A stretch of 64,000 nt of DNA from Nitrospira japonica (GTDB taxonomy: Bacteria; Nitrospirota; Nitrospiria; Nitrospirales; Nitrospiraceae), in the NCBI RefSeq assembly GCF_900169565.1, contig NZ_LT828648.1, forward strand, positions 1,986,876-2,050,875. The letters run 5' to 3'. Positions 48,731 to 50,941 of the stretch are shown here, in pieces (position 1 is the stretch's first letter; each line of letters begins with the position of its first letter). The position numbers were made by a program, and so were the translations under genes. A model generated the notes under the pieces. It saw only the letters and a list, made by a program, of their open reading frames with translations, was not told the origin of the DNA and searched no databases.

Positions 48731-50071
48731 TCAGTCGTTCCACAACCACCGATACCAGGCGTCTTTGTCGGGTATGGCGGCGGCGGTGAGGTTCATGGCT
48801 TTCCGGATCTCGGCGATGTTCCAGCCGGTCAGCGTCGCGAGCGTCTCGGCCTGCCGTTCGTGTCGTTCGGGCAGTTGCCGCCGGTAGGCGATTGCGGCCT
48901 GACAGTCGTCCGTCCCGGTCCAGGGATGCCTGAGAATGTACCGGGCCTGGAAATTCGACCGGTCCGACGTTTCCTGAAAGAGCAGGTCCTCAGGAAAGTG
49001 AGCGGCGTCATAGCGGACGTGCAAGCGTGTCAGAAAGACGCTGCGCGCTTGAGGTGCTTTGGATGCCTGCCCGGAGGATTCCTGCCAGAAGACGCCGAGG
49101 CTTCGCAGTTCCTCTTCCGAGAGGGGATCGGCGGCACAGGGATCACACCAGGTCATGTCCCAGGCATATTCTACAAAGACGCCTCGCTCGTCCTCGCGTT
49201 TGACCTGTTGCGTAAACAGATCGCGATAAAAATCGCCGAACCGATCCCTGACGTACAACGGAAGTTCCTGAGCCGCGGGCAAGCGCACCGTCCGATAGTT
49301 CGTCGTTTCCACGCGGCCCTGTTTCGTCAAAAAATAGACGAACAGTTCCTGGGAACTCTCGGCGTTCACCGTTCCGAGGCGGATCGGCAGCATGAACTTC
49401 GGGGACGCGAACGCGATCTGCAGCGGCCGCAGATGCGTCAAGCCCAGTTTGGCCTGCTCGCCCAGATTGACTTTGGCGACGAAGAATTTCATATCCTGCT
49501 TCAGATAACTGTGCAGGACGGCCGAAGCACCTGTGGGAATGCGATAGCCGTTCTCCGTGAGCCAGGTCTCAAGGCCTGCACTCTCCTTGGCCGATAGAAG
49601 CAGGATGTCGTATTCGCCGACCTGATACTGAGCCTCGACCGTCACGCCCAGCGCCCGCTCACGCTCGCGGTTCGGTGCCGCAGCAGGGGCCTGGCTTTTC
49701 ATGGCGTCCATTCTGCGCTCCAGGAGTTCGTATCGTACGCAGGGGTTCTCGTCGAAGTATTCGACCAGTCTCGGCGCCGAATAGTCGGCCAGGTGTTTCA
49801 GGACTGCGGGCTGACCGATGTGGATCTGGTCCTTCTGCAGCACGGCCGGCATGGGGACGACCAGCGCGAACTCCTTGACGTCGCCTTTGAAATCGTTCGC
49901 CATCGTGAGGACGGTCTTGTCGGCATGACGGGCAACGACTACTTCTGAGGCCTTGTTGAAGAGCTTGGTGTCGGCCTTGCCGACATAGAAGCCGCAGAAG
50001 GCGGAAGCGGTGCCGTTCGATGCGAGTAAGCCGGTGATGAGTGCGAGCGCGAGCATGAGAGGCCGGGCCAT
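48731..50071 (-). CDS. internal start: secreted DUF2330 protein
   Basis: At 50071 an in-frame ATG opens a 446-residue protein with a perfect signal peptide (MARPLMLALALITGLLASNG..ASA), then CGFYVGKADTKLFNKASEVV and EFALVVPMPAVLQKDQIHIG typical of DUF2330. AAAGGAGATTTGT precedes the ATG, a textbook ribosome site. It is most likely translated from here regardless of the upstream frame. DUF2330 has no known reaction; it is periplasmic, with a cluster of cysteines (WCDPCAADPL). Confidence 0.75.
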   Translation of the reverse strand: MARPLMLALALITGLLASNGTASAFCGFYVGKADTKLFNKASEVVVARHADKTVLTMANDFKGDVKEFALVVPMPAVLQKDQIHIGQPAVLKHLADYSAPRLVEYFDENPCVRYELLERRMDAMKSQAPAAAPNRERERALGVTVEAQYQVGEYDILLLSAKESAGLETWLTENGYRIPTGASAVLHSYLKQDMKFFVAKVNLGEQAKLGLTHLRPLQIAFASPKFMLPIRLGTVNAESSQELFVYFLTKQGRVETTNYRTVRLPAAQELPLYVRDRFGDFYRDLFTQQVKREDERGVFVEYAWDMTWCDPCAADPLSEEELRSLGVFWQESSGQASKAPQARSVFLTRLHVRYDAAHFPEDLLFQETSDRSNFQARYILRHPWTGTDDCQAAIAYRRQLPERHERQAETLATLTGWNIAEIRKAMNLTAAAIPDKDAWYRWLWND

Positions 50072-50941
50072 ACAAATCTCCTTTGGTGAAGGTGAAAGGA
50101 ATACGGTGTTCGGAGAGGCGAGGGTTCCGGTCGATGGTGTGGACCAGTCATACCGCGAGCCTGGACACAGCCGATCAATGAGAGGCACGAGCGGGGAGCA
50201 GGCAAGCAGTCCCCAGAGTATCCCGTGCGGCCGATGGAGGGCATACTGCGTGGCAAAGGCGCAGAGGGCGACCAGCGCCGTGAAGAGTAGCCTTCCGGCA
50301 CGGGAATCCGGCGTCGTTTTCGGGTCGGTGATCATGAAGAAGGAAAAGATCAACAACGTGCCGCTTTCGATCTGATGCAGCGGAATCGTCAGCGGATCGC
50401 CGAGCCAGAGCGCGCGAAGGATCAGAAGTCCGACGTAGAACCCCAGAAACGACAGCGTCACGTCCGCGCGGGCGGCCCGCGTCACCACGAAGCTGCCAAA
50501 GCCGACGACCAACAGCCCGAACCAGGCGACCTGGCCCCATTGGCCGGGAGAGATCCAGCCGAGTCCCGTAATCATCATGACGGTCAGACCGAGATTGGTC
50601 GGGTTGAACAGGTGTTTGCCGTTCAGCCGGATGAGAAACTTGCTGCCGATGGCGAGGGCAGAAGCCAGCGCGGCGGTCAGAGGGTCGTTCGCGCGGAGAA
50701 AGATGCAAAGGCCCACGGCCGATACGATCGCACTCAGCGGATCGTATGACGGCAGCCGATGCCATCGCGTACCGGCATATTGGGCCAGCAAGGCGGCTCC
50801 GAACGTGGCGGCGATCTGGCTCACCGGGACGTCGAAACGCAGCCACAGCAGGCCGTACGACAGCAGCGTCCCCAGGCTGATGATCTGATACAGGCGGGGA
50901 TCGAGCGGTGAAAACCTGGACAGGACGTCGTGAACGCTCAT
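48731..50941 (-). CDS. RnfD/NqrB-like membrane module in frame with a DUF2330 protein
   Basis: One open frame of 736 residues from ATG 50941 has no stop between two modules. The first (about 1-265) is a multi-pass membrane domain of the NQR2/RnfD/RnfE type, with DPLTAALASALAIGSKFLIR, GKHLFNPTNLGLTVMMITGL and FSFFMITDPKTTPDSRAGRL. The second (about 291-736) is a secreted DUF2330 protein with its own signal peptide. An ideal ribosome site and ATG for the second module lie inside (see the separate entry). Either this is one long fusion protein or two genes whose boundary stop was lost. No other Rnf subunit is nearby. Confidence 0.7.
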   Translation of the reverse strand: MSVHDVLSRFSPLDPRLYQIISLGTLLSYGLLWLRFDVPVSQIAATFGAALLAQYAGTRWHRLPSYDPLSAIVSAVGLCIFLRANDPLTAALASALAIGSKFLIRLNGKHLFNPTNLGLTVMMITGLGWISPGQWGQVAWFGLLVVGFGSFVVTRAARADVTLSFLGFYVGLLILRALWLGDPLTIPLHQIESGTLLIFSFFMITDPKTTPDSRAGRLLFTALVALCAFATQYALHRPHGILWGLLACSPLVPLIDRLCPGSRYDWSTPSTGTLASPNTVFLSPSPKEICMARPLMLALALITGLLASNGTASAFCGFYVGKADTKLFNKASEVVVARHADKTVLTMANDFKGDVKEFALVVPMPAVLQKDQIHIGQPAVLKHLADYSAPRLVEYFDENPCVRYELLERRMDAMKSQAPAAAPNRERERALGVTVEAQYQVGEYDILLLSAKESAGLETWLTENGYRIPTGASAVLHSYLKQDMKFFVAKVNLGEQAKLGLTHLRPLQIAFASPKFMLPIRLGTVNAESSQELFVYFLTKQGRVETTNYRTVRLPAAQELPLYVRDRFGDFYRDLFTQQVKREDERGVFVEYAWDMTWCDPCAADPLSEEELRSLGVFWQESSGQASKAPQARSVFLTRLHVRYDAAHFPEDLLFQETSDRSNFQARYILRHPWTGTDDCQAAIAYRRQLPERHERQAETLATLTGWNIAEIRKAMNLTAAAIPDKDAWYRWLWND

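Follow-up and report, generated by a model that had tools for sequence, protein, structure and literature searches.

In Nitrospira japonica, an RnfD-like membrane protein and a secreted protein of the DUF2330 family are encoded by one uninterrupted open reading frame, and this fusion is real and recurrent among the relatives of the species. In two sets of close relatives a single-base difference distinguishes fused from separate loci, and the ribosome-binding site of the downstream gene is conserved at the nucleotide level in both states. Since the fused gene retains this site together with the ATG and the signal peptide that follow it, its mRNA most likely yields two products. We therefore consider it reasonably probable that the locus makes a fusion precursor, probably cut, as well as a free DUF2330 protein, and that relatives with two genes reach the same proteins by coupled translation. 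In other words, a coupled gene pair has repeatedly been fused, and the internal start appears, from the pattern of substitutions, to be under selection.

The fused frame and its parts

The window, i.e., the whole stretch of 64,000 nucleotides that was analysed, belongs to a genome assembled as a single contig of 4,084,817 bases. An earlier note on this DNA had claimed that the two modules lie in one stop-free frame with a ribosome site and a signal peptide of the second module inside it, and both claims are borne out. The frame (48731..50941, minus strand) runs from the ATG at 50941 to the stop at 48731-48733 and encodes 736 residues, in which Pfam recognizes NQR2_RnfD_RnfE (PF03116) at residues 128-260 (54.1 bits, cut-off 27.7) and DUF2330 (PF10092) at residues 312-655 (267.1 bits, cut-off 24.7). 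The RnfD-like module, hereafter A (residues 1-265, 50147..50941, minus strand), has ten predicted membrane helices and is devoid of the covalent-FMN linker. It is followed by a hypervariable tail rich in Pro, Ser, and Thr (residues 266-290, 50072..50146, minus strand) that is predicted to be disordered (pLDDT <50 at residues 272-294). The tail contains the internal ribosome-binding site AAGGAGA (50077..50083, minus strand), which spans codons K287-E288 and the first base of I289 and reads AAGGAGG in most relatives. Residue 291 is the internal ATG (50071-50069, minus strand; one base off the 50072 given in the earlier note), the putative start codon of the free DUF2330 protein, and opens a signal peptide (residues 291-314, 50000..50071, minus strand) with a likely signal peptidase I site, identified by eye, between ASA and FCG. 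The mature DUF2330 protein, hereafter B (residues 315-736, 48734..49999, minus strand), is probably secreted into the periplasm and contains five cysteines, two of them in a WCDPC motif, that are invariant among 34 aligned proteins. A single junction of this kind, some 75 nt long and in frame, would count for little on its own, its chance occurrence being by our estimate a one-in-three chance of phase multiplied by the chance of meeting no stop.

Recurrence of the fusion and one-base switches

Relatives were gathered by searching with the fused protein, one genome per species, and taking the best 80 of 137 related places, a query and a selection that favour intact pairs. The best 80 of 137 come from Nitrospira, Acidobacteria, Rokubacteria, Deltaproteobacteria, Methylococcaceae, Thiotrichaceae, and alphaproteobacteria, among others. 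Together with loci from other searches they make up a set of 101, from which merging of duplicates and the exclusions given below led to 81 unique loci, and removal of one with a short A (L086) left 80 rows; a partial hit (L058), a broken frame (L061), a reversed order (L092), and a run of N (L096) were excluded from the trees. The 80 loci comprise 20 fused and 60 separate pairs, and their tree requires 10 changes of state, at least 7 of them forced by starred branches. A Nitrospira-centred tree of 68 distinct rows, for which 29 further loci had been reduced by 14 (13 of them duplicates, the other L127 with its broken A), contains 26 fused rows, 13 of which form one clade. It requires 12 changes between fused and separate states (bootstrap range 11-12), at least 8 of them forced by well-supported branches; support is weak at many nodes within Nitrospira, the long branches L123 and L033 join each other, and parsimony counts the changes only and does not give their direction. 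The 58 Nitrospira-family rows alone comprise 23 fused ones and require 10 changes. A search with DUF2330 only, over an even draw of 198 Nitrospirota genomes, found a match in 34 genomes (31 above the cut-off); both modules were present in 29 of the 30 loci returned, four weaker DUF2330 matches being left out, and 13 of these 29 loci are fused. These three counts (80 loci, 68 rows, and 29 even-draw loci) have members in common. One row labelled Nitrosospira (Nitrosomonadaceae; L053) is placed deep within Nitrospira and probably represents a mislabelled bin. At two further loci (L061 and L127) the RnfD-like frame seems to be broken, yet DUF2330 still has its ribosome site and start.

Comparison of the boundary among these relatives, which the earlier note had called for, is informative about how the two states are related. 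The stop of A overlaps the start of B in 34 of the 35 separate Nitrospira-family rows, including L007, the sister of the window (32 with a 4-nt overlap of the ATGA type, two with TGATG, and one with neither); the pair in the window has no such overlap since it is fused. Outside Nitrospira, the spacing between A and B ranges from gaps to long overlaps. The tail of separate-gene relatives terminates in a different frame from that of the fused rows, and the ribosome site is read as Gln-Arg-Arg by most separate A frames and as Lys-Glu-Val by most fused rows. Fused L130 differs from its sister L046 and from L129 by one additional A in the stretch of adenines within the ribosome site, and fused L052 differs from L056, L057, and L126 by one additional G ahead of the ATG; in both cases this is the sole internal indel of the junction alignment. 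The proposal that a boundary stop had been lost is supported in part, insofar as A and B overlap in separate Nitrospira relatives and one extra base can fuse them.

At the ATG of B, the frame of A is in the fused phase in 23, in the overlap phase in 34, and in the third phase in only 1 of the 58 Nitrospira-family rows. The third phase would put the stop of A 11-563 nt inside B, and the lone row in this phase has the stop of A before B. Its rarity suggests, weakly since the rows are related, that coupled layouts are preferred. The 23 fused Nitrospira-family tails have ten distinct lengths, every one a multiple of three, and those of the 13-row clade are 93, 96, 126, and 129. Between pairs with equal tail length, pN/pS is 0.83 in the tail, 0.26 in the last 200 codons of A, and 0.08 in the first 90 codons of B, as would be expected of a nearly neutral tail between two constrained proteins. 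Three loci closely related to the window (L007, L036, and L054) keep the ATGA overlap and have, in comparison with the usual start, 23-93 extra in-frame codons between the start and the signal peptide of DUF2330; portions of this insert are similar in L007 and L036.

The internal start, the signal peptide, and the likely products

At each of positions -12 to -6 from the internal ATG, the consensus base is found in at least 16 of 17 fused and at least 24 of 27 separate rows, despite the different reading frames. In 39 columns of the fused Nitrospira ORFs a Lys or Glu is shared by 16 or all of the 17 sequences, and only two of these columns are without synonymous change, both of them ribosome-site codons (AAG in 16 of 16, one Thr row aside, and GAG in 17 of 17), these 17 ORFs being related and not independent points. 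For comparison, 8 of 153 columns are codon-invariant when all two-fold residues are taken. L052 was excluded from this codon test and from the fused ribosome-site profile, its fusion reading the site in the other frame. Because the ribosome-site codons show no synonymous change and the same DNA is kept in two frames, initiation at the internal ATG is the best explanation, and the internal start is probably kept by selection in fused ORFs. The idea, already put forward in the earlier note, of a fusion and a free DUF2330 protein produced side by side gains partial support from a ribosome site conserved as DNA within fused genes; the two products themselves are what we infer from it.

A signal peptide in the middle of a protein had been regarded as an anomaly. 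Its position is confirmed, and the difficulty is eased when topology is considered. In a solved Rnf complex, both termini of RnfD are cytoplasmic (PMC9588780). For the entire ORF, AlphaFold2 gave a model (mean pLDDT 82.9, pTM 0.62) with ten helices in A by our own reading, helix VIII being broken, followed by a linker of pLDDT <50 and by the signal peptide, modelled as a helix of low confidence. If both termini of A are inside, our own count gives 16 Lys and Arg residues for its inner face and 4 for its outer face. The RnfD-like part should consequently end in the cytoplasm, and the internal signal peptide would then have its normal orientation. The signal peptides of the 26 fused and 42 separate rows are alike in mean hydrophobicity (2.47 versus 2.48) and in their -3/-1 residues; this conservation is uninformative on the cutting of the fusion since the free form requires the same features.

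In the usual separate Nitrospira layout, the two genes overlap by ATGA, with a strong ribosome site for B within the end of A. As roughly the last 25 or more codons of A are nearly unconstrained, small indels in the tail, or between the ribosome site and the ATG, would repeatedly have shifted A into or out of the frame of B. Once fused, the gene would give rise to an A-B precursor, whose internal signal peptide would adopt an N-in/C-out orientation and probably be cleaved by signal peptidase I, and to a free pre-B initiated at the internal ATG. Both routes would end in the same two proteins that separate-gene relatives obtain by coupled translation. It is tempting to go further and to hypothesize that a dual-output layout is itself under selection, one-base slips alternating overlap and fusion and the internal start setting the ratio of tethered to free DUF2330; the third phase would be shunned since only coupled phases tie the amounts of the partners, and the pair would be a new transmembrane system of two proteins, derived from RnfD and with an outer partner resembling P35. 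This extension is possible but tentative, and we lean against it as a whole.

The least credible explanation of the fused frame is that a sequencing or assembly error erased a stop or a frame offset. One changed base would be enough in principle; nevertheless, the state recurs in 26 of 68 rows, including the complete chromosome of Nitrospira moscoviensis (L023), and has a clustered distribution over the tree, none of 500 shuffles needing so few changes, and we thus strongly disfavour an error and give it next to no weight. Two possibilities that the earlier note had left standing, a stop hidden by such an error and relatives that are always separate with a stop, fall away on the same grounds. 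A further reading, which we deem unlikely, holds that the fusion works as a single protein of eleven helices, with DUF2330 tethered outside, the signal peptide staying uncut to serve as an anchor, and the internal start surviving as a relic out of use. The predicted topology permits tethering, and the 13-row clade has maintained the fusion through four tail lengths that are all multiples of three; however, an idle relic would hardly keep ribosome-site codons without synonymous change when 37 other Lys/Glu columns do change, all 26 fused rows keep Ala/Val at -3 and Ala/Ser at -1, and fused and separate states interchange frequently. That same interchange, together with the nearly neutral tail and the strength of the internal ribosome site, would be in line with an inconsequential accident, in which A can do without its tail, the cell tolerates in-frame read-through, and almost the whole supply of functional B is initiated internally. 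The occurrence of the third phase in only 1 of 58 Nitrospira-family rows speaks against it, weakly as the rows are related, and we rate an accident as slightly less likely again than the tethered protein. A precursor that is probably cut, plus free DUF2330, is the reading that we retain.

The two proteins and their place among known systems

The fold of A is that of RnfD/NqrB, with ten helices in two moieties: Foldseek matched its AlphaFold2 model to 15 RnfD/NqrB chains (E 3e-9 to 5.8e-5), the best PDB match being 8rbq_D (TMt 0.70). By sequence A scores far below the cut-off of the NCBI rnfD model TIGR01946 (43.8 versus 207.05 bits). The covalent-FMN threonine of Clostridium tetanomorphum RnfD sits in its five-helix linker (PMC9588780). 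This linker was not found in A, either in the model or in the profile alignment to 8ahx_D, which omits residues 136-210 of that chain; the linker between helices V and VI of A is about 12 residues long. The complete genome yielded no second PF03116 protein and no match to PF02508, the family of RnfA/RnfE, which is matched in 4 of 14 control genomes. The candidate role of A as a subunit of an Rnf or Nqr complex was ruled out on these three counts. One ApbE gene is found elsewhere in the genome, which removes any argument against Rnf/Nqr from a lack of ApbE. An analogy with the enediyne protein UnbU was set aside as our literature search gave no supporting paper. Asn113 and Asp206 are invariant across 31 aligned A proteins and, by our own mapping, seem to correspond to the Asn and Asp described as flanking riboflavin in C. 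tetanomorphum RnfD (PMC9588780). What the pair does biochemically we can only infer; more speculatively, A may bind a non-covalent flavin, or move an ion or electrons, with B as its partner on the outer side.

The DUF2330 module had no sequence relative of solved structure at E <=10, and a literature search by the name DUF2330 found no paper. A thioredoxin-like role for WCDPC was considered and is unsupported, the motif lying in a loop in both models. VIA-align paired the DUF2330 model with baculovirus P35 (Z 10.5, rmsd 4.7, 222 aligned residues, 9% identity; next family Z 6.5), the model having more than 400 residues, a size at which the program warns that single-domain matches may be weak or missed. 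The top three rows of a BFVD search are of P35/P49 type (E 2.9e-5 to 0.024), and Foldseek gave E 2.6e-4 but TM-scores of only 0.24-0.37; given these low scores, the resemblance to P35/P49 is a lead. DUF2330 might be a bacterial counterpart of this apoptosis-suppressor fold. The N-terminal domains of M1 aminopeptidases reach Z of about 6, a range that VIA-align calls common.

The earlier note had remarked on the pairing of an Rnf/Nqr-type subunit with DUF2330 in the absence of other subunits. The pairing is confirmed and is no local peculiarity, being the rule among the relatives seen: both modules occur in 94 of 101 loci (the best 80 of 137 plus loci from other searches), once with DUF2330 upstream of the RnfD-like gene (L092), the remaining seven having B alone (six loci) or neither module (L021). 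A DUF2330 homologue lacks a recognizable RnfD-like neighbour in the stretch examined of L068, L074, and L087 (Parabeggiatoa, Acaryochloris), as it does in L062 and L131, both close to contig edges. An all-against-all comparison of neighbouring ORFs of at least 90 aa (many frames are spurious, and a shorter partner could be missed) gave 212 clusters, of which 5 are common to Nitrospira and other loci, all with members that overlap A or B; a conserved operon partner was ruled out on this basis. The other clusters are confined to Nitrospira or to non-Nitrospira loci (in the latter case 8 loci at most, for instance a single-strand binding protein-like cluster recognized by eye). As no neighbour cluster other than those overlapping A or B bridges Nitrospira and the others, A and B look like a conserved module that stands on its own.

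Set against RnfD/NqrB (PF03116), A shares the ten-helix fold and apparently, by our mapping, the Asn/Asp pair, and differs in being without the FMN-threonine linker and the RnfA/RnfE partners. The nearest described systems are two-subunit Nqr/Rnf-like complexes (mSystems 2024, PMC11334425). Their NqrB/RnfD-like membrane part is devoid of the FMN-threonine, they carry an NAD-binding domain at the C-terminus, and their extracytosolic partner is of the NqrC/RnfG type. The likeness lies in the two subunits, the membrane part and the outer location of its partner; the partner seen here is DUF2330 instead, and the NAD-binding domain PF00175 was not found in the fused protein, where Pfam gives PF10092 and PF03116 only. 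The pair ties an unstudied secreted family to a membrane partner that is derived from RnfD and no longer has the linker for covalent flavin.

At the level of gene layout, the relatives form a natural series of genomes in which one pair is coupled by overlap or by fusion around a fixed ribosome site, so that fusion and reinitiation can be tested base by base. Overlapping pairs (ATGA or TGATG) with translational coupling are a known layout (PMC10666635). Separate Nitrospira relatives have the same overlaps and a ribosome site within the upstream gene; what differs is that the present pair has gone back and forth many times between such an overlap and complete fusion in frame. Bradyrhizobium fbcH encodes a fusion of cytochromes b and c1 that is cut at an internal signal peptide. 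There too, a polytopic membrane protein with its C-terminus inside continues in frame into the signal peptide of a partner that is exported; the proteins are different, and fbcH is not known to switch frequently or to retain an internal ribosome site. An internal in-frame start in SpaO reportedly gives two isoforms, long and short, from one ORF; our locus resembles it in its long and short products, with the difference that the short one would be exported by a signal peptide of its own.
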